A DNA stretch of 64,000 bases from Aquitalea aquatilis (GTDB lineage Bacteria; Pseudomonadota; Gammaproteobacteria; Burkholderiales; Chromobacteriaceae): positions 3,720,001-3,784,000 of the forward strand of contig NZ_CP039731.1 in assembly GCF_005155025.1 (NCBI RefSeq). Direction: 5' to 3'. The position numbers and the translations under genes were made by a program. Within the stretch, counting starts at the first letter, position 1; the number at the start of each line of letters is the position of its first letter. Below, in pieces: positions 13,542 to 23,393 of this stretch. The notes beneath the pieces were generated by a model. That model saw only the letters and a list, made by a program, of their open reading frames with translations, ran no database searches and had not been told where the DNA came from.

Positions 13542-13788
13542 GGTGCCTTGCTCCGCGATGGGGATAGCAGGCATTTAACCCTGATACGCACACGGGAAAT
13601 ATTCGCCGATAGCAGCAAAACGCGCAGCATGAGGAGCTAGCCCGACCCTGCAGATGGGGAAGCCGGACTAATCACAAAGTAGCATGCCACCCCGCGCGGC
13701 CTTAGCCATTGCAGCCGGCCCCGGACATGTCACGCCACTGCGCCCTACCCCTTACGGAGAATTGCTGTCCGGCAGGCCAGGGGTTATT
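13542..13788. promoter_or_regulatory. divergent narK1 / narX promoter region
   Basis: About 250 bases between the narK1 and narX starts must carry both promoters. One plus-strand heptamer TACCCCT at 13746-13752 fits the NarL consensus TACYYMT, but a single 7-mer may be chance and no paired 7-2-7 arrangement was seen. No clear FNR box was found. The stretch is GC-rich and contains no other gene. Confidence 0.3.
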
Positions 13789-15753
13789 GTGGGCAGCATT
13801 GCCTTTGGCAATACCATGCCACCCGCCACCCGGATGCCCCGCACGATGATGCTCTACCAGACCCCGCGCCTAAGCAGCCTGTCCACCAAGCTCTTGCTGC
13901 TGACCATCGCCTGGCTGCTGCTGGCCATGACCTCCATCGGCTACACCCTCATCCTGTCGTGGAAGCTGGAAGGCGGCGCGGCCGCCATCAACGATGCCGG
14001 CAGCTTGCGCATGCGCAGCTACCATATCGCGCTGCAAGTAAGCGAAGGCGCACCGCTGGCCGCCATTCATGAAGGCGAGCAGCAGTTCGCCGCCATCCTG
14101 GCCCGGCTGAAGCAGGGCGATCCGGCGCGGCCGCTGTTCCTGCCGGACAATGCCACGGTCAGGCAGCAGGTGCGCGATATCGAGCACTCATGGCAGTCCG
14201 ACATGCTGCCGCTGCTGGAAACCACAGCCAGTCAGCATGCCGGCCAGCGCCAGATGGAAAGCCCGGACATCGCCCGCTTCGTCAACCGTATCGACCGCCT
14301 GGTCAAGCTGGTGGAAGAAGACAACGCCCGCAATACCACCCTGCTGCGCTTTTTCCAGATGGCGCTGATCGCCATGGCCATCATTGGCTCGTTCAGCATG
14401 ATGTTCCTGCTGTTCCTGCTGGTGATCCGGCCACTCAACACCCTGGGCGAAGGCATGCTGCGACTGCGCGACGGCAATCTGGACGCCCGGGTCAGCGTGG
14501 ACAATAACGACGAATTTGCCACCATTGCCACCGGTTTCAACCAGATGGCCGACCGTTTGCAGGACCTGTACGCCACACTGGAACAGAAAGTGGCCGACAA
14601 GACCCGCTCGGTGGAATACAAGAACCGCCAGCTGGCCGCCCTGTACAACGTCACTGCCTTCCTGCATGACTCGCACAGCCTGACCGACATGTGCAGCGGC
14701 TTCATCGAGCGGCTGATCGAGCTGACCGGTGCCGATGCCGGCAGTGTGCGGCTGGTGGATTTCAAACGCGGACGGCTGGAGTTGATCGCCCAGAACGGCC
14801 TGCCGGCCGAACTGCAGGAAGAAGACGATTGCGCCACGCTCAATGGCTGCCTGTGTGGCGATACCGTGCCGCAGCCCTTCTCCGTGCTGCATCGCTTCGA
14901 CCAGTTGCCGGCGGCGACCGAAAAGCACTGCCAGCGCGCCGGCTTCTCCAGCATTGCCGTGTTTCACATCCGGCACAACCAGACCAATGTCGGCATTTTC
15001 ACCCTGTACTTCTATCAGGACCCCAAGCTGGCCACGCAAGACCAGTTTCTGCTGGAAACCCTGGGCAGCCATCTGGGCGTGGCGGTGGAAAACCACCGCC
15101 TGGCAGCCCGCGACCGCCAGTTTGCCGTATCAGAAGAGCGCAACCTGATGGCCCAAGGCCTGCACGACAGCATTGCCCAGTCGCTGTCCTTCCTGAATCT
15201 GCAAGTACAGATGCTGGACGCCGCACTGGCCGAGCAGCAAATGGAGCAGGCGCAGGAAAACCTTGGCTTCATCCGCGCCGGAGTGCAGGAATGCTATGAA
15301 GACGTGCGCGAACTGCTGCTGAATTTCCGCACCCGCATCAGCAAGGAAGACTTTTCCGATGCCGTGCGCACCCTGCTGGAGCGCTTTGAAAAGCAGACGC
15401 ACATCCCCACCCAGCTCAATATGGGTGGTGACGGGCTGGCGCTCAATCCACAGCAGCAGTTGCAGCTGATCTTCATCCTGCAAGAAGCGCTGTCCAATGT
15501 GCGCAAACATGCGCAGGCACAGCGCGTACGCATAGAAATACTCAACCAGGCCGATTTCAGCATGAGCATACGGGACGACGGCTGCGGCTTTGATGAGGAT
15601 GTCGTTGCCACCCGCCGCGCCAGCCATGTCGGGCTATCCATCATGCAGGAGCGCGCAGCCCGCATTCGCAGCCAGATCAGCATTCATCCCCATCCGCACG
15701 GCGGCACCGAAGTACAATTGCTGCTACCACAAAGTGAAAGACAAGCCGCATGA
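13789..15753 (+). CDS. narX: nitrate/nitrite sensor histidine kinase NarX
   Basis: Domains in order: membrane helix 1 (LLLLTIAWLLLAMTSIGYTL), a periplasmic helical sensor with the P-box-like INDAGSLRMRSYHIALQV, membrane helix 2, HAMP, a GAF-like domain with several cysteines (CATLNGCLCGD), the HisKA_3 H-box (AQGLHDSIAQSLSFLNLQV, phospho-acceptor His) and a HATPase domain (NVRKHAQAQRVRIEI). This is the NarX/NarQ layout. The start is uncertain: GTG at 13789 has AGGGG five bases upstream; ATGs at 13684, 13816 and 13846 are alternatives. The stop overlaps the narL start by four bases. Confidence 0.93.
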   Translation: MGSIAFGNTMPPATRMPRTMMLYQTPRLSSLSTKLLLLTIAWLLLAMTSIGYTLILSWKLEGGAAAINDAGSLRMRSYHIALQVSEGAPLAAIHEGEQQFAAILARLKQGDPARPLFLPDNATVRQQVRDIEHSWQSDMLPLLETTASQHAGQRQMESPDIARFVNRIDRLVKLVEEDNARNTTLLRFFQMALIAMAIIGSFSMMFLLFLLVIRPLNTLGEGMLRLRDGNLDARVSVDNNDEFATIATGFNQMADRLQDLYATLEQKVADKTRSVEYKNRQLAALYNVTAFLHDSHSLTDMCSGFIERLIELTGADAGSVRLVDFKRGRLELIAQNGLPAELQEEDDCATLNGCLCGDTVPQPFSVLHRFDQLPAATEKHCQRAGFSSIAVFHIRHNQTNVGIFTLYFYQDPKLATQDQFLLETLGSHLGVAVENHRLAARDRQFAVSEERNLMAQGLHDSIAQSLSFLNLQVQMLDAALAEQQMEQAQENLGFIRAGVQECYEDVRELLLNFRTRISKEDFSDAVRTLLERFEKQTHIPTQLNMGGDGLALNPQQQLQLIFILQEALSNVRKHAQAQRVRIEILNQADFSMSIRDDGCGFDEDVVATRRASHVGLSIMQERAARIRSQISIHPHPHGGTEVQLLLPQSERQAA

Positions 15754-16406
15754 CACCCATCCGCATTTTGCTGGTTGACGACCACACCCTGTTCCGCAGC
15801 GGCCTGAAGGCGCTGCTGCAACGACAAAGTGATTTCGACATCATTGGCGAAGCGGCCGACGGCCTGGAAGGCGTCAAGCTGTGCGAACAACTGAAGCCGG
15901 ACGTGGTCCTGCTGGATATCGACATGCCGCAGATGAACGGGCGCGAGGCGCTGGCACAGATCATGGTCAGCCAGCCGCAACTGGCGGTGCTGATGCTCAC
16001 CGTATCGGAAGACGGTGAAGATCTGGCCGAATGCCTGAAACTGGGCGCGCGCGGCTATCTGCTGAAAAACATCAATGCCGACTTCCTGCTGGCCAGCATT
16101 CGCCGCGCAGTGGATGGCGACAGCGTGCTGTCGCCGGAAATGACCTCACGGCTGCTGCAACAGCTACGCAGCGTCGACACGCAGAAAAACAAGCCGACCG
16201 GGCTGGATCAACTGACCCAGCGTGAACGCGAAATCCTGGCCTGGCTCAGCCGGGGCATCAGCAACAAGGAAATCGCCCGTGCGCTGGATCTGGCCGAGAG
16301 CACCATCAAGGTGCATGTACAGAACATCCTGCGCAAACTGAACCTGAACGGCCGGGTGCAGGCCGCGCTGTTTGCCGTGGAGCACGGGCTGGACAAGCTG
16401 CCCTGA
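15750..16406 (+). CDS. narL: nitrate/nitrite response regulator NarL
   Basis: A 218-residue response regulator. The receiver domain begins IRILLVDDHTLFRSGLKALL with the phospho-acceptor Asp in VVLLDIDMPQMNG. The C-terminal LuxR/NarL helix-turn-helix reads LTQREREILAWLSRGISNKE and STIKVHVQNILRKLNL. Partner of the overlapping narX. In known systems NarL-phosphate activates narK and narG promoters in nitrate; here the target narK1 is divergent from the pair, which suits that role. Confidence 0.95.
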   Translation: MTPIRILLVDDHTLFRSGLKALLQRQSDFDIIGEAADGLEGVKLCEQLKPDVVLLDIDMPQMNGREALAQIMVSQPQLAVLMLTVSEDGEDLAECLKLGARGYLLKNINADFLLASIRRAVDGDSVLSPEMTSRLLQQLRSVDTQKNKPTGLDQLTQREREILAWLSRGISNKEIARALDLAESTIKVHVQNILRKLNLNGRVQAALFAVEHGLDKLP

Positions 16407-16539
16407 AGCCAGGGCGGTATCCGCCCTTTCGCACCAGCCCCCTACTCCCTCAGACCTAGCGAAAACCCCACCACCGGCCAACTGGCAAGCCCGCTGGATG
16501 CGCCTACACTCTGGCCATTCTCCCCTCAGAGGGTCAGCC

Positions 16540-17514
16540 ATGTTACGCGACCGTTTTGGCAGAAGCATCGACTATCTGCGGCTATCCGTTACCGACCGCT
16601 GCGATCTGCGCTGCAGCTACTGCATACCCAAGGGTTTCAAGAACTTTGAAGAACCGGCCAACTGGCTGGGCTTTGCCGAAATCCAGCGGGTGGTGGCAGC
16701 CTTTGCCCGCCTGGGAACCCGGCGCTTTCGCCTGACCGGCGGCGAACCGCTATTGCGGCGCAATCTGCCAGAGTTGATCGGCATGCTCGCCAGCCAGCCC
16801 GGCGTGGACGACCTGTCGCTCAGCACCAATGGCACCCAGCTGGCCGCCCAGGCCGGTGCGCTCAAGGCGGCAGGCTTGCAACGGCTGAACGTCAGCCTCG
16901 ACTCGCTACGGCGAGACTGCGTCGCCAGCATCAGCGGCAGCGACAGCCTGGAGCAGGTATTGCAGGGACTGTCGATCGCCCGCGCTGCCGGTTTCAAGAG
17001 CATCAAGATCAATATGGTGCCACTGGCCGGCGTCAACGACCACGATATCGACGCCATGCTGGCTTACTGCAAGACACATGGATTCATCCTGCGCCTGATC
17101 GAAGCCATGCCCATGGGCCATACCGGCCAGCAAGCAGACGGGCTGGATTTGTCACAGCTCTTGCACAGCCTGAGCGAACGCCATGGCCTGACCCCCAGCG
17201 CGCTGAGCCTGGGCGGCGGCCCTGCCCGCTACTGGCAAAGCCAGGACGGCAGCTGCACGCTGGGGCTGATTACGCCGATGTCGCAGCATTTCTGCGCCAG
17301 CTGCAACCGGGTGCGCCTGTCGGTGGATGGCACCTTGTATATGTGCCTGGGACAAGAGGAAAAGCTGGAACTGCGCCCGCTACTGCGCGCAGGCTGCAGC
17401 GATGCCGAACTGGAAACAGCCATTCGCACCGCCATCGAACTGAAACCGGAACGCCACGAATTCAACCAGCAACCGCAGCAAATCATGCGTTTCATGTCGA
17501 TGACCGGGGGCTGA
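16540..17514 (+). CDS. moaA: GTP 3',8-cyclase MoaA (molybdenum cofactor synthesis)
   Basis: A radical SAM enzyme for the first step of molybdopterin synthesis, GTP to 3',8-cyclo-GTP. The SAM cluster motif CDLRCSYC lies near residue 25, followed by FRLTGGEPLLRRNL. The second cluster needed for GTP binding is seen as FCASCNRVRLSVDGTLYMC. It is 324 residues, near the usual 320-340, but ends in NQQPQQIMRFMSMTGG rather than the common GG-terminated tail preceded by a longer helix. The start follows GAGGG; the longer upstream frame overlaps narL. Its place next to narXL fits a copy dedicated to supplying nitrate reductase. Confidence 0.93.
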   Translation: MLRDRFGRSIDYLRLSVTDRCDLRCSYCIPKGFKNFEEPANWLGFAEIQRVVAAFARLGTRRFRLTGGEPLLRRNLPELIGMLASQPGVDDLSLSTNGTQLAAQAGALKAAGLQRLNVSLDSLRRDCVASISGSDSLEQVLQGLSIARAAGFKSIKINMVPLAGVNDHDIDAMLAYCKTHGFILRLIEAMPMGHTGQQADGLDLSQLLHSLSERHGLTPSALSLGGGPARYWQSQDGSCTLGLITPMSQHFCASCNRVRLSVDGTLYMCLGQEEKLELRPLLRAGCSDAELETAIRTAIELKPERHEFNQQPQQIMRFMSMTGG

Positions 17515-17648: not shown

Positions 17649-20609
17649 TCAGTCTCCGACATAAACAAACGGTGCCCAAAAGAAAGGGTGTGCGCGCGAA
17701 ACCTGCTGCCCGGCATTGCCATAGCGGCTTTGCTTGAGCTCACGCCGTGCCGCTTCGATAGCCGCCGTGGCGCTGCTGCCGGCCTTCAGGCGGCTGAACG
17801 TGGCCACCATCAATTCCTGCGTGGCCTGGCTTTCCACACTCCAGTGACTGACCAGCAAGCCCTGCGCGCCAGCATACATAAAGGCCCGCGCCAGGCCGGC
17901 AAAGCCTTCGCCGCTATGCGCCACATCATGCTCGCCAGCGGTATTGCAGGCAGACAGCACCACCAGCTCGGCGCTCAGGTTCAGTTGATCCACCACCTCA
18001 TGCATGGTCAGCAGGCCGTCCTCACCATGCAGATTGCCGGACAGCGACAGCAATAGCGCAGGCTCCGGATGCAGGCGACTGCTGTCGCTCCCCTCATCCG
18101 CCAAGGATTCCTTGAGCATGACAAACTCGCCGCCCAGCAAACCGTGGGTGGCAAAGTGCAGGTAGCGGGTGGTGCTGAGGTCCAGATGCTTCAGCGTGTA
18201 TTCCTGCGCATTTTCTTCCAGGTACAGGGTGTTGTTGCCACCCAGGATACGGTCGATGCCACGGGCCTCCTGCGCGGTTTCCGGCAGGCGCGGAATATTC
18301 AGCTGGCTGGCCTTGGGCTTGCCATAGTTGCGGGTCAGGCTTTGCCCCAGCAGGCTGGAGAAAAAGCCCGATTCCTGCTGCGCCGTCGCATCGAACAGCG
18401 GGTCGGCAAAGGACACCAGCTCGTGCCGGTAGGCAATGCGCGGGCGACGGTATTCACGCATCGACACCAGTGAGGACAGGCTGGGCAAATAAGCCAGCTG
18501 GTAGCGGTCGCCCAGATAATGCAGACCGGCATACTCGCCCAGCAGCGGCTGTTGCTGGCGGGCCTGGGCAAACTGTTGCTGGTCGGTGTCATCCCAGCGG
18601 GTGATCAGCATTTCCAGCGGCAGGGTGTGCAGCGGGCCATCGCCCACCGACAGCAGCCGGCTTCCCGGCTTCAGCCAGGGCTCCAGCGGCTGGAACAGCT
18701 GCTGATAGGCGCGGTACAGCAGGGCCGGGTCCAGTTGCTGCAAGCTGGCCATGGCGTCGCCGGCGGCCTCCTCCGGTGCGCGTAGTGCGGTAACCAGCTC
18801 GGCCACCTGCTTTTTCCCCACGGGCAGTCGCACCATGTGAAAACTATCGGTGGTGGTGACAAAAGCCAGGGTTTCCTTGTCGAGCAGGAAATAAGTCAGC
18901 AGGCTTTCGCCGGGATGCAGGATGTTCTTTTGCAGGCGCTGCACGTCTACCGCTTTGGGTTCGGCCAGGTCCATGAAGCGCGGAAACTGCTGCCACAGCT
19001 GTTGGTTGACGCCTTGCAGCGCCTGGCGCGCCTGGTGGATATCGGCATCGATACGCTGCCGGCTGGCCTGTACCCGCTCCTGCACCAGCTTGTCCCTGCC
19101 GGTGTTGTCACTGTCGCTGGAGGCCGCTCGCCCATCATCCGGATTTTCATTGAAGGCCCCGGTATTGGTGCGTTCGCGGCGCAACTCGGCCAGACGGGTC
19201 TGCAGCTCTTGCTGCTGTCGGCGCAAGGCGCGGAAGCTGCTGTTGTCGTTCAGGCGGCTGACATCGGCCTGCTTCAGCAGTTCGCTGAACAAACGGCTCT
19301 GGGTACGCGACACCACCGCCAGGATCTGCCGGTCGTAGCCGGCCGTTGGCTGCTGCTGGTGCAGACGCAACAGCAGCTGGATGGTTTCCAGATAATTGAC
19401 ATGAAAGCGCGAGACAAAACCTTCACGCACGCCATCATCCAGCCCGCGCGTCTGGGCAAACTGCTTGTCTACCGCGTCCAGCGTCTGCTGATAGATGGCC
19501 AGCGCCTCTTCCAGCCGGCCGTGGCGGGCGAGAAAACGCCCATACAGCAGGCCGGCGCGGCTGAAACTGTTCAGCGCATTCAGCTGCTCCAGCTGGGCGA
19601 CCGCAGGTCGATACAGTGCGTCTGCCTCTGCGTCCTGCCCGCCATTCTCCAGCGCCAGCGCCAGATCGACGCCACTTTGCGCGGTGAGCGGATGCAACGG
19701 CCCCAGTACCTGGCTGGATAGCTGACGGGCCTGGCGCAGCACGCTGACGGCCTTTGCATAGCGCTTTTGCTGCAGATACAGCATGCCCTGGGAATTCAAT
19801 ATCTGAATGCTGGTGGCCGACTCTTTGGCACCCGGCAACTGGTGATAGCGGTCCAGTGCCTGCTGATAGAATTTCTCCTCAGCCGCCCGGTTGCCCAGGC
19901 CCGCCTGACACAAGCCATGCAGGTAGAGGCTGCTGGCACGCACTTTGGTCACGGTATTCGGGCCGGAGCCGTTATCGTCCGGGTCCATCGGCTCGGCCAC
20001 CACCTTGAGCGCATCCGCTTTCTGCAGCACCTCCTCCGCCTGCTTGTCCTGATGCAGCTGGTGCAGCACGGAGGCCTGCAGATTGTAGAGCTCCACCATG
20101 GAGATGCGATCCGGCGCATACGCCAGCTGGCGGCGCATGCCTTCGCTGATGAAGGCCTGTGCTTCCTGGAAACGAGCCTGACGGATCATCAGCTTGGCCA
20201 GATTCTTCAGCACGCCAATCGGCTGGCGATTATTGCTGCCATGCTTGCTTTCAACCAGTGGCAGTGCCTGACGCAGCACCACTTCGGCCTCCACCCATTT
20301 GCCACGCATCACCAGCGTGCCGCCAAGGTTACGGTAGCCATCGCCCAGATGGTCGGTACCCAGGCTCATGGCCACGCGGGAGCGGGCGGTGGCTTCGGCA
20401 TTCGGGTAGTCCTCCTGCAGCATGTACTGGGTCCACTGCCAGCCCATCTCCGACACCTGGCGGCCCAGTCCGTTACCGGCAAAGGCCGGGCTGGCCAGCA
20501 ACAGGGCCAGCACAGCCAGCCGATGACGCAAGGGGCTGCGCTGGCGCAAAGTCGGACACAGCAATTTCAACAGCGTGGCAACACGGCCAGGACGATGGCA
20601 AACAGACAT
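17649..20609 (-). CDS. exported TPR-CHAT domain protease-like protein
   Basis: 986 residues. A long basic N-terminus and a hydrophobic core ending LLLASPAFA (about residue 44) make a signal peptide. Residues about 50-430 are tetratricopeptide helices, a coiled segment (QELQTRLAELRRERT) lies near 480, and a CHAT domain fills the C-terminal third. The catalytic pair is visible: His822 in HFATHG and Cys888 in LSACNTAGEHD. CHAT proteases are caspase relatives; known ones act in the cytoplasm, whereas this one appears to be exported. Last gene of a four-gene operon, 12 bases after the small exported protein. The start has only a weak ribosome site. Substrate unknown. Confidence 0.88.
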   Translation of the reverse strand: MSVCHRPGRVATLLKLLCPTLRQRSPLRHRLAVLALLLASPAFAGNGLGRQVSEMGWQWTQYMLQEDYPNAEATARSRVAMSLGTDHLGDGYRNLGGTLVMRGKWVEAEVVLRQALPLVESKHGSNNRQPIGVLKNLAKLMIRQARFQEAQAFISEGMRRQLAYAPDRISMVELYNLQASVLHQLHQDKQAEEVLQKADALKVVAEPMDPDDNGSGPNTVTKVRASSLYLHGLCQAGLGNRAAEEKFYQQALDRYHQLPGAKESATSIQILNSQGMLYLQQKRYAKAVSVLRQARQLSSQVLGPLHPLTAQSGVDLALALENGGQDAEADALYRPAVAQLEQLNALNSFSRAGLLYGRFLARHGRLEEALAIYQQTLDAVDKQFAQTRGLDDGVREGFVSRFHVNYLETIQLLLRLHQQQPTAGYDRQILAVVSRTQSRLFSELLKQADVSRLNDNSSFRALRRQQQELQTRLAELRRERTNTGAFNENPDDGRAASSDSDNTGRDKLVQERVQASRQRIDADIHQARQALQGVNQQLWQQFPRFMDLAEPKAVDVQRLQKNILHPGESLLTYFLLDKETLAFVTTTDSFHMVRLPVGKKQVAELVTALRAPEEAAGDAMASLQQLDPALLYRAYQQLFQPLEPWLKPGSRLLSVGDGPLHTLPLEMLITRWDDTDQQQFAQARQQQPLLGEYAGLHYLGDRYQLAYLPSLSSLVSMREYRRPRIAYRHELVSFADPLFDATAQQESGFFSSLLGQSLTRNYGKPKASQLNIPRLPETAQEARGIDRILGGNNTLYLEENAQEYTLKHLDLSTTRYLHFATHGLLGGEFVMLKESLADEGSDSSRLHPEPALLLSLSGNLHGEDGLLTMHEVVDQLNLSAELVVLSACNTAGEHDVAHSGEGFAGLARAFMYAGAQGLLVSHWSVESQATQELMVATFSRLKAGSSATAAIEAARRELKQSRYGNAGQQVSRAHPFFWAPFVYVGD

Positions 20610-20621
20610 GCAGGGGCTCGA

Positions 20622-21092
20622 TCAGGGTTTTCTGGTCAGGATGACGCGATTGATGACGGCATTGCCACCCGCGTCCTTGTAGTAATACACCTTGGCGTTG
20701 TAGCGCTTGGCCTGCGCATTCACCAGTGCTTCCCGCGCCTCCCCCACCATGGAATACATGATGGGCAGCAGGGCAAACAGTGCGCGCTGGTTCAACTGGG
20801 CCGGCTCGGGGATTTCCTGCAGCTCCATCAGGCCATTCTCGCCAATCAGCGACAGCCAGCGGTCCAGCCGCGGCGAGATATTGGTCAGGGTAATCTGGCC
20901 GGACATGGTGATTTCCAGCTTGTCCGGCTGCTTGCTCAGTTCGTTGTACAAGCGGCCATCAAACAGTTTGGAATCAATGAACATCAGGCTCTGGCTGGTC
21001 GGCTGCGCCGGTGGGGTGCTGGCCGGCAGCGGAAGGTTTTCTGCATGGCTCAGGCTGGCAGCCAGCAACAACAGGGTGGCGAGGCGTTTCAT
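20622..21092 (-). CDS. small predicted exported protein of unknown function
   Basis: I do not recognise a family. The start at MKRLATLLLLAASLSHA follows GGAGAACC and gives a textbook signal peptide; the longer frame adds 27 residues that overlap the upstream gene. The mature part of about 139 residues has a Pro-rich first stretch, then mixed alpha/beta sequence (DKLEITMSGQITLTNISPRL; ALVNAQAKRYNAKVYYYKDA) ending in basic residues. It lies between the caspase-like and CHAT genes, separated by 37 and 12 bases, so it is likely a functional member of the set, perhaps a substrate, inhibitor or adaptor. Confidence 0.75.
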   Translation of the reverse strand: MKRLATLLLLAASLSHAENLPLPASTPPAQPTSQSLMFIDSKLFDGRLYNELSKQPDKLEITMSGQITLTNISPRLDRWLSLIGENGLMELQEIPEPAQLNQRALFALLPIMYSMVGEAREALVNAQAKRYNAKVYYYKDAGGNAVINRVILTRKP

Positions 21093-21129
21093 GCGCGGTT
21101 CTCCATGGGAGGGATTGGGGGCGAACGGG

Positions 21130-22704
21130 CTAGTCCACTTCCTGCAATGGCAACAGCGCCGAGGCAAAGGCATCCGAACAGCGTTTGCTGACCTGCAGGT
21201 TACGCAGCGGGGTGGCGCTGCTGCACTCTGTCATGCCGGTATTGGCCGAACTGGCCATCACCTGCTGCAACAGGGAACGGCCCTGCTTGTCGAGCAGGGT
21301 CTGCACAAAGGGGCCGGCCGCTTCGCCCTTCAGCTGTTTGAGCTGGCGCGGCGAGTCGGTCACCATCACCAACAGGCTGTCACGCCCTGCCGGCCCACCG
21401 GCGTCCACCTGCCATGTCTTGCGTGGCAATTGCACGGTCTGCCCGGCCTTGATCCGGTTGTCGCCATCCAGCTTGTTGGGGTAGAGCAGGTAGAGGCTCT
21501 TGCCATCCGAACCGGCCAGCGCAATGTAGAGATAGCCGTCCTGCGGTGCAGTCACGCTGAGTTCCAGCTTGTCGCGGCCTATCTTCAGCTGCTCGCGCCC
21601 CATTTTGACCTGCAGTTCACGGCTACCATCGCGCTGGGCATGAATCTGCTCCAGAATTTCCGCCGGGCTGGCCTGGTGTACAACAGTTTGCGGCAGCGGT
21701 GCCGGACGGTTGGCGGAGGCCGGCGTGGCAAGGGGCGGTGTGGGCGGTGTCGGTGTCACGAAGGCGCTCTTGATCCAGGCCGGCACAAATTCCTTGTTGC
21801 CACCTACCGTCATGTGCTGACCCAGCACACCGGGCTGATTGGCCAGATTGTCATCCAGCTTGGCCTGGGCACAGCGGGTGATTTCATCCACGGTAATGGC
21901 ACCACTGCCATCCAGATCACGCGCCTCACCCTGCAGGCAATCGCGCCAGGCAGTAGTGGCCAGGCCTCCGCGCTGGGCATTGTCAAAAGACACTTCGTCC
22001 GGCTTGCTGGCGGCGATATGAACAATATTCTGCGGCAGACCGCCCTGCTCTTTCAGCGCGGCGCTGAGCGAGCGTGTTTTGAAATTGCTGGGGCTGAAGC
22101 AACTGCCCGGTGCCGTTTCGGAGGTGAACTTGGGGGTATACAGGGTATTGTTGATGGTCAGCGCCCGCGTCTTCATCGGATTGGCCACCACGCCACCGGA
22201 GAAGCAGGAGTCATAAAACACCATCATCTTGTCGGTCTTGCGCGCCAGCGGCTCCAGCAACTTGCCCATTTCCCGGTTGCTCAGCACATCGCCATCGGTG
22301 GCGACCAGGCCCTCGGTACACATGCCCTCGGCACTGCTCGATTCATGCCAGCGAGTGCCATGACCGGAGTAATAAACAAACAGCCGGTCACCGCTGTGCA
22401 GGCGCTGGTTTAATTGGGCAATCGCCTGGCGGATATGCTCGGCCGTGGCCTGCTCATCGCGCAGATAGCTGATGTTTTCGTCCGGAATACCCATGCTGGC
22501 CGCCATCTGGTGCGCACTGCCCATATCATGCTGCACCCCCTTGAGCGATGGAATGGCGGCATTGCTGTAATGCCCAATGCCGATGATCAGCGCAAAACGG
22601 TTGTTCACCACGGCCGGGGCATCGGCCGCCAGGGTGATGCCAGAGGCGCACAGCGCGGCCAGCGTGGCGGATAACAGGCTTTTCTTCATCGCAGTGGCTT
22701 TCAC
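21130..22704 (-). CDS. exported caspase-like (peptidase C14) protein with EF-hand and DUF4384-like domain
   Basis: The protein is 524 residues from a GTG start that overlaps the upstream stop (GTGA); an ATG five codons later is possible. A signal peptide ends at about residue 27 (SGITLAADA). The p20-like domain starts RFALIIGIGHYSN; the catalytic dyad is His115 (YYSGHG) and Cys167 (YDSCFSGG). A canonical EF-hand loop lies at 263-274 (DLDGSGAITVDE). After a Pro-rich linker near 325-345, the region near 390-460 (GYLYIALAGSDGKSLYLLYP) resembles DUF4384, often fused to bacterial caspases. Second gene of the OmpA-caspase-unknown-CHAT operon. Site of action probably periplasm or cell surface. Confidence 0.9.
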   Translation of the reverse strand: MKATAMKKSLLSATLAALCASGITLAADAPAVVNNRFALIIGIGHYSNAAIPSLKGVQHDMGSAHQMAASMGIPDENISYLRDEQATAEHIRQAIAQLNQRLHSGDRLFVYYSGHGTRWHESSSAEGMCTEGLVATDGDVLSNREMGKLLEPLARKTDKMMVFYDSCFSGGVVANPMKTRALTINNTLYTPKFTSETAPGSCFSPSNFKTRSLSAALKEQGGLPQNIVHIAASKPDEVSFDNAQRGGLATTAWRDCLQGEARDLDGSGAITVDEITRCAQAKLDDNLANQPGVLGQHMTVGGNKEFVPAWIKSAFVTPTPPTPPLATPASANRPAPLPQTVVHQASPAEILEQIHAQRDGSRELQVKMGREQLKIGRDKLELSVTAPQDGYLYIALAGSDGKSLYLLYPNKLDGDNRIKAGQTVQLPRKTWQVDAGGPAGRDSLLVMVTDSPRQLKQLKGEAAGPFVQTLLDKQGRSLLQQVMASSANTGMTECSSATPLRNLQVSKRCSDAFASALLPLQEVD

Positions 22705-23354
22705 GGATTGACCTGATCGGTATTGACGATACGAACGCGGCGGTTTTCAGCTGCATAGGGGTCTGCCTTGTTGGCCGGCTCGTCCGAACCCTTGCCTAGT
22801 GCGCGCAATTGCTGGGCAGCCACACCACGGGTAATCAGCAGCTTGCGTACGGCATCGGCCCGCAGCTGCGACAGCTTGCGGTTATAGGCTGGCAGGCCCT
22901 TGGCATCGGTATGCCCCTCGATCAGGAAATGAAAGTCGCGCAGCTCGCTGGACTGCAGCGCCGAAGCCAGCCGTGCCAGCGCCTGCTGGCTAGCGCTGCT
23001 GATCTGTACCGAATTGGGATCAAACTGAATGGCCAGCGACAGGCTGGGCGCAGCCTCGGCCTGCGGTGGCGTGGCTGCAAGCGGCGCGGCGGCGACCGGC
23101 GTCGGCTGGTTACTCGCCGCAGGCACGGCGGGTGGCAGATTGACACTGTCGACGGCGGCCTCGGCAGCAGGCTCGGCCACCGGCTTGACCGGGCTCACCT
23201 GCAGATTGCGCAAGCTGCGGGTTTTCAGTGGCTTGAGCGACTCGATCATGGACCGGGTATCCGGCGCATCTTCTGCCTGCGCCACGCCTTGACAAACGAA
23301 TAAAAACGCCATGACACCCCATGCCAGACGCAGCATGCTCTTGTTCTTGTACAT
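22701..23354 (-). CDS. OmpA-family peptidoglycan-binding protein
   Basis: 217 residues. The signal peptide (LRLAWGVMAFLFVCQGVAQA) is followed by an Ala/Pro-rich low-complexity linker of about 80 residues and a C-terminal OmpA-like domain with the peptidoglycan-binding signature HTDAKGLPAYNRKLSQLRAD. There is no beta-barrel and no lipobox cysteine, so it is probably a periplasmic protein held to the cell wall. The chosen ATG lies six bases after GGGAG; the GTG one codon upstream is less well placed. First gene of the four-gene operon, overlapping the caspase-like gene by four bases. Confidence 0.88.
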   Translation of the reverse strand: MYKNKSMLRLAWGVMAFLFVCQGVAQAEDAPDTRSMIESLKPLKTRSLRNLQVSPVKPVAEPAAEAAVDSVNLPPAVPAASNQPTPVAAAPLAATPPQAEAAPSLSLAIQFDPNSVQISSASQQALARLASALQSSELRDFHFLIEGHTDAKGLPAYNRKLSQLRADAVRKLLITRGVAAQQLRALGKGSDEPANKADPYAAENRRVRIVNTDQVNP

Positions 23355-23393
23355 CACGACTCCCTGCCATTTTTATTGATGGTTTCTTGTATG

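Follow-up and report, generated by a model that had tools for sequence, protein, structure and literature searches.

A putatively exported caspase-like protease operon in Aquitalea aquatilis and a small-protein family recurrently found near caspase-like genes

Could proteases of the caspase clan work in the bacterial envelope? The question is raised by a four-gene operon of Aquitalea aquatilis, located in a stretch of 64,000 nucleotides (positions 3,720,001 to 3,784,000 of contig NZ_CP039731.1; hereafter the window), which encodes an OmpA-like protein, a caspase-like protease of family C14, a small protein and a TPR-CHAT protease (Table 1). Bacterial caspase-type proteases are often discussed as cytoplasmic death or defense enzymes. 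The comparisons described here suggest a peptidoglycan-tethered, extracytoplasmic and most likely periplasmic orthocaspase module, in which the second protease would be exchangeable and the small protein would act as an accessory or substrate, and we give this reading a probability of roughly 0.45. What is new here is the family of small proteins, together with its recurrent link to caspase-like genes.

Predicted export signals and catalytic residues of the four proteins

The envelope location of the four products is well supported by their sequences. Hydrophobic N-terminal cores are found by a simple hydropathy heuristic within the first 60 residues in orthologs of all four proteins, and simple hydropathy detects no strong membrane helices in the remainder. 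Two open reading frames, those of the small protein in locus L011 and of the OmpA protein in L012, had been called too long, with the signals visible from inner starts, and the start of the CHAT protein in L013 and L014 resembles a lipobox. Cytoplasmic systems with TPR-CHAT proteins or with caspases are known, which would favor a reading of the signals as miscalled starts and of the proteases as cytoplasmic, like the known CHAT and caspase defense effectors; however, the recurrence of signal-like starts in orthologs of all four proteins and the conserved cysteines described below make this very improbable. A first-pass annotation of the window had assigned a signal peptide to each of the four proteins, in agreement with the conserved signal-like starts, and had proposed that both proteases are exported, a view further supported by the retained extra cysteines of the C14 protein and by the reuse of its DUF4384 domain in a kinase. 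The same annotation held that bacterial caspase-like and CHAT proteases usually work in the cytoplasm, which is too strong a statement, given that, according to the available part of PMC3501461, many bacterial metacaspases possess an N-terminal helix that is possibly a signal peptide, with surface roles suggested for them and with metacaspases present in operons.

The C14 protein contains a metacaspase/orthocaspase domain (Peptidase_C14, 70.6 bits against a cut-off of 21.4), for which plant metacaspase-4, matched at 4.6e-11, and metacaspase-9 are the nearest solved structures by sequence. The catalytic dyads, His115/Cys167 in the C14 protein and His822/Cys888 in the CHAT protein, stand at the positions first given for them and are identical in all eight operons compared, namely those of seven carriers in the window's family and that of the sister genome G008. 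Equally invariant in the eight operons are Asp60 and Asp165, which align with Asp residues of metacaspase-4 that presumably make up the basic S1 pocket, and because of this alignment the C14 protease is predicted to be specific for Arg/Lys. Metacaspases and orthocaspases carry out Arg/Lys-specific, often Ca2+-dependent proteolysis. Besides Cys167, the C14 protein has an even number of six cysteines, of which residues 129, 202, 256, 278 and 509 are found in 8/8 operons and residue 494 in 7/8, the eighth operon having a Cys that is aligned a few residues off.

The C-terminal stretch of the C14 protein (residues 346-523, DUF4384) recurs at the C-terminus of a Ser/Thr kinase whose gene is next to type VI secretion genes on a Caballeronia plasmid (L123:3726-5522), where the domain keeps a Cys pair. 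It is preceded in the kinase by a hydrophobic stretch at about residues 355-373; since the mean of this stretch, 1.66, is only slightly above the peaks inside the kinase domain, a membrane helix ahead of DUF4384 is weakly predicted and no more than probable. The arrangement of the domain in the C14 tail and in the kinase would fit a periplasmic location, and the available part of PMC7475262 lists DUF4384 together with orthocaspases. Compared with bacterial metacaspases and orthocaspases, the C14 protein of the window thus has the same catalytic domain by sequence, with the His/Cys dyad and both aligned S1-type Asp residues, but differs in its signal-like start, the additional conserved cysteines, the DUF4384 tail and the fixed operon with the OmpA-like, small and CHAT genes.

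In the OmpA-like protein, the motifs GHTD and LS..RA are present in 8/8 operons, and the Asp and Arg in them are, as we take it, the residues of the peptidoglycan site, which supports the earlier proposal of this protein as a wall anchor. The OmpA domain with both motifs is common to the Pal/OmpA C-terminal peptidoglycan-binding proteins, from which the window protein differs by the lack of a detected lipobox and by a Pro/Ala-rich linker with a TR[SG]L island after the signal; it falls under the cut-off for the best 25 of the 35 NCBIfam OmpA-type families. The island, MI..L.P..TR[SG]LRNL, directly follows the signal (window positions 23150-23290), and its TR[SG]LRNL part is kept in 8/8 operons. 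The seven residues LRNLQVS are common to this linker and the C14 C-terminus in the window, with RNL kept in both proteins throughout the eight operons. TR[SG]L islands also occur in OmpA proteins of Azospirillum, Bradyrhizobium and Paracoccus (L143, L144 and L146). A role of the linker as a specific docking tag for C14 was considered and rejected, as TR[SG]L is also present in the Azospirillum and Paracoccus proteins, near which no caspase gene is annotated in the region viewed, and the island is therefore a wider feature and not proof of docking.

The CHAT domain of the fourth protein is recognized at 183.7 bits, and this part of the protein has no match in the PDB at E<=1. TPR-CHAT proteins are found in type III-E CRISPR systems, and some CHAT proteases cut bacterial gasdermins. 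The combination of TPRs and a CHAT domain with the His/Cys dyad is common to these systems and the window protein, which in contrast has a signal-like start and no CRISPR or gasdermin partner among the four genes. gRAMP and Csx30 are not among the other operon genes (OmpA, C14 and small; CRISPR arrays were not searched for), and the CHAT protein matches no PADLOC family at E<=0.1, the presence of a Csx29 model in that library not having been checked. No adjacent gasdermin was recognized, the small protein being without a family match above cut-off and only 156 residues long. For the four operon proteins together, PADLOC returns a generic 'caspase' model and ZorB/MotB matches to the OmpA-like protein and nothing else. 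A defense role of the operon is therefore unsupported, and the 'cascade' and 'death/defense' roles first proposed for it are guesses. The available part of PMC10907252 describes putative conflict systems in which the effectors are caspase-like and CHAT proteins and the sensors are predicted in both cytoplasm and periplasm, and peptidoglycan-associating OmpA domains appear in other, membrane-near conflict systems in that of PMC7159879. Among the literature matches listed, which cover open-licence papers, no title concerns the four-gene operon or the small-protein family.

Conservation and modularity within the window's family

Across the 61 genomes of the window's family that were searched, the small gene is found in seven, which include Neisseriaceae bacterium JH1-16, Crenobacter oryzisoli, Vogesella urethralis and Beta proteobacterium L13. 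The conserved gene order, which the first-pass annotation had named as a check on its proposal, is intact in 7/7 of these carriers, and an arrangement of four genes in identical order each time is not due to chance. The surroundings of the operon are mostly unlike among the carriers, with only L013 and L014, from one genus, sharing theirs. Close C14 orthologs are found in eight of the 61 genomes, the seven carriers and G008, with weak further matches in G046 and G047, and CHAT orthologs of at least 51% identity are confined to the same seven carriers, other matches being short except in G008.

The operon of G008, a sister genome that is 61% complete, is informative for the modularity of the system. 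The OmpA, C14 and CHAT genes are contiguous there (L113:945-6134), both dyads are complete and no room is left for a small gene between C14 and CHAT, and the CHAT protein is divergent, with 31-32% identity. The absence of the small gene together with the divergent CHAT shows that the operon is modular, and the single case without the small gene is at the same time the one with a CHAT of another type. Five of the ten genomes in the genus contain a close copy of the dehydrogenase gene that flanks the operon in the window; the window's genome is one of them, and next to the gene in the remaining four the operon is missing. The flank differs in 4/4 sister genomes, and the site of the operon is therefore variable. 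A mobile element was considered and rejected, since the small protein has no plasmid or viral match and the GC content of the operon is like that of its surroundings, the site being variable nonetheless.

The patchy distribution also bears on the possibility that the two proteases form a pair serving maturation or housekeeping, which would trim proteins of the envelope or surface, such as adhesins, matrix proteins or lipoproteins, with no link to death or defense. The four proteins have no defense-system match beyond generic models, the Paracoccus OmpA protein with the similar linker adjoins a two-partner-secretion adhesin gene, and a ShlB-type transporter gene lies beside the CHAT gene in L083, all of which would suit such a pair. 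Presence in only 7/61 family genomes, however, is unlike a housekeeping function, and we regard this reading as unlikely.

The small-protein family and its gene neighborhoods

Pfam, NCBIfam and PADLOC give no match above cut-off for the small protein, and it has no relative among PDB sequences (best E 0.16). By its sequence it is a member of an undescribed family of mostly predicted lipoproteins, whose other hallmarks are D..xFD, IPxRL..W and YNA-like motifs. Pattern matching detects a lipobox in 37 of the 46 small proteins that come from families other than the window's; the six window-family loci in the same list have none, and none is seen by eye in the small protein of the window. With the widest profile, relatives occur in at least 7 of the 399 genomes searched from the order (at least 6 of 399 with the first profile), three of the seven belonging to the window's own family, and in at least 5 of 369 genomes of the class and 2 of 299 of the phylum, each count including the window's own genome. 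The corresponding figures are at least 4/43 genomes for family f5 and at least 25/42 for family f83. In some of these searches the first filter scored just a fraction of the candidates, and absences are accordingly soft.

Outside the window's family, a profile search detects a caspase-like gene at most 6 kb from the small gene in 19 of 44 loci, a set to which L128, L113 and L033 do not belong. By single linkage the caspase cluster is the largest neighbor cluster (21/44), followed by OmpA (9/44); the figure of 19 is used here because single linkage takes in L070 and L122, which have no C14 profile match. The OmpA counts are low because the simple gene caller missed OmpA genes, for example in L062 and L063, and the same caller missed small genes in L011, L023, L024 and L025, which were put in from the located frames. 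A CHAT gene is near the small gene in two of the 44 loci, L060 and L083. In f83, 14 of 35 loci have a C14 gene inside the same 6-kb distance, with 1.48 expected from the C14 density of each genome and none of 200000 simulations reaching 14, a statistic that is optimistic since the loci are partly related, and in which the expectation comes from Pfam C14 counts and the observed genes from a profile built in this analysis. The count covers 37 of 42 match rows (35 loci); five partial or stop-holding rows were left out (G622:C202, two of G1117:C126, G1128:C7 and G1128:C20), of which G622:C202 has a C14 match close by and would have favored the link. This recurrent proximity suggests an envelope-located protease module.

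The genomes of f83, which we infer to be the Beggiatoaceae, reach 8.8 Mb and up to 52 C14 matches each; the genome of the window (4.36 Mb) has one C14 match in total. The available parts of the respective papers report 59 metacaspases in Thiomargarita and a metacaspase expansion of the Beggiatoaceae (PMC4853749), and list Beggiatoa among the metacaspase-rich genera (PMC4933709). The C14-rich f83 is likewise where the small family is common, whereas a linked small lipoprotein family is not mentioned in the part of PMC4853749 available to us.

The core shared across loci consists of a C14 protein, often with DUF4384, an OmpA protein and the small protein, with CHAT, WD40-C14 or another C14 as the second protease (Table 1); CHAT is not present in the stretches read of L024, L061-L063 and L128. 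The run of same-strand genes in L082 places C14 genes alongside two serpins (Pfam 4.6e-104 and 5.6e-116), possible inhibitors of theirs, and a small lipoprotein, suggesting that inhibition belongs to the theme. For this reason we keep the alternative that the small protein, with the envelope location unchanged, is an inhibitor or chaperone that silences the exported caspase, and that serpins replace or supplement it elsewhere. A plant serpin inhibiting a metacaspase is reported in a title cited in the available part of PMC8233489. The small protein, however, has no family match above cut-off, and G008 keeps C14 and CHAT with full dyads in its absence, so that an inhibitor appears possible but doubtful. 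A transfer of the proteases across the outer membrane to act on neighbors or prey would agree with the signal-like starts on all four proteins and with the ShlB-type transporter beside the CHAT gene of L083, but the four-gene operon has no transporter, and retention is indicated by the peptidoglycan motifs of the OmpA-like protein and by the occurrence of the small protein as a lipoprotein, which renders such a transfer decidedly improbable. A further protein of about 360 residues, uncharacterized and with a signal-like start, is encoded near the small gene in 6/44 loci (L067:3541-4626, L069, L074, L077, L089 and L120).

Table 1 Genes of the window operon and composition of related loci.
Feature	Position	Strand	Match or gene content
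Window, OmpA-like gene	22701..23357 (GTG start) or 23354 (ATG start)	minus	Pfam OmpA 7.7e-22
Window, caspase-like C14 gene	21130..22704 (GTG) or 22689 (ATG)	minus	Peptidase_C14 2e-19 + DUF4384 2.3e-16
Window, small-protein gene	20622..21092	minus	Pfam: single match, E 0.035, far under cut-off
Window, TPR-CHAT gene	17649..20609	minus	Pfam CHAT 6.7e-54 + TPRs; signal-like N-terminal segment
L024			C14, C14, OmpA, small
L061-L063			small, long C14 (WD40-C14 in L061 by Pfam), C14-DUF4384, OmpA
L128			small-OmpA-C14
L082	1607-8677	same strand	two OmpA-domain genes, C14-DUF4384, serpin, uncharacterized gene, C14, serpin, small lipoprotein
L083			small, C14, ShlB-type transporter, CHAT

In the window, the four minus-strand genes are spaced exactly as first described: the first two overlap by 4 bases when C14 is taken from its GTG, and the gaps that follow measure 37 and 12 bases. 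The true C14 start is likely the in-frame ATG at 22689, from which a short gap replaces the overlap at the first junction. Upstream, an aldehyde dehydrogenase-like gene stops 347 bases short of the GTG start, and downstream lies a MoaA-like gene convergent with the operon, both named by eye; the operon stands alone among its neighbors. A promoter scan found no promoter, terminator-like sites number 9 against a shuffled mean of 5.2, and no tRNA or Rfam features are present in the window. NarX/NarL- and MoaA-like genes, named by eye, are located near the operon both in the window (13684-17514) and in L024 (26-3957), which belong to different families, possibly by coincidence.

A proposed mechanism and its implications

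In the proposed module, the OmpA-like protein would tether C14 to the cell wall, DUF4384 would serve as a periplasmic docking or sensing domain, and the TPR-CHAT protein would be the exchangeable second protease. The small protein would be an accessory dedicated to the exported caspase and, in the version that we prefer, its substrate: upon a disturbance of the wall or envelope, it would be cut after a conserved basic residue, and a hydrophobic segment would be freed at the envelope. In the window protein, a hydrophobic run spans about residues 104-117, with Arg103 just before it. Across the family, the uncharged and mostly hydrophobic run has a median length of 14.5 residues. Among distinct sequences with a flank, a K or R stands before it in 40 of 51 and after it in 24 of 52; of the 1602 charged residues in the same proteins, 815 (51%) are K or R. 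As a basic residue often precedes the hydrophobic stretch, the small protein is a candidate substrate, with inhibitor or adaptor as possible alternatives. A far more specific version would make the small family a substrate reserved for exported orthocaspases: a periplasmic cut after Arg103 would free a C-terminal fragment starting with a hydrophobic, membrane-active helix, and the whole would form an analogue of the caspase-gasdermin pair at the level of the envelope, held at the wall by the OmpA-like anchor and restrained by serpins in some bacteria. We consider this version improbable.

Several observations weigh against the wall-tethered module or its substrate version. The first-pass annotation had held that its proposal would suffer if homologs were single and unlinked in most genomes; within the family this is not so, all seven being linked, whereas among the distant relatives 25 of 44 loci have no C14 gene within 6 kb, including 21 of 35 in f83 and some on short contigs. 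A free active-site Cys in an oxidizing compartment calls for an explanation. The AlphaFold model of the C14 protein has low confidence, with a predicted local distance difference test (pLDDT) score of 55.0, and disulfides are therefore not checkable from the structure; that of the small protein, from a five-sequence alignment, scores 58.6 and matches nothing in the PDB at E<=0.001, and no claim on its fold is made. The K/R residue before the run fails in 11 of 51 sequences, and the bias is modest, comes from related rows and may reflect membrane topology. Finally, the run picked by the script in L031, L071 and L082 is not the hydrophobic one.

A conserved caspase-like system that is exported and wall-tethered, has its own small partner and is accompanied by serpins in one relative would, if true, place regulated proteolysis of the caspase type in the envelope of bacteria. 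The metacaspase expansion of the giant sulfur bacteria, as described in the available part of PMC4853749, would then gain a defined partner gene.

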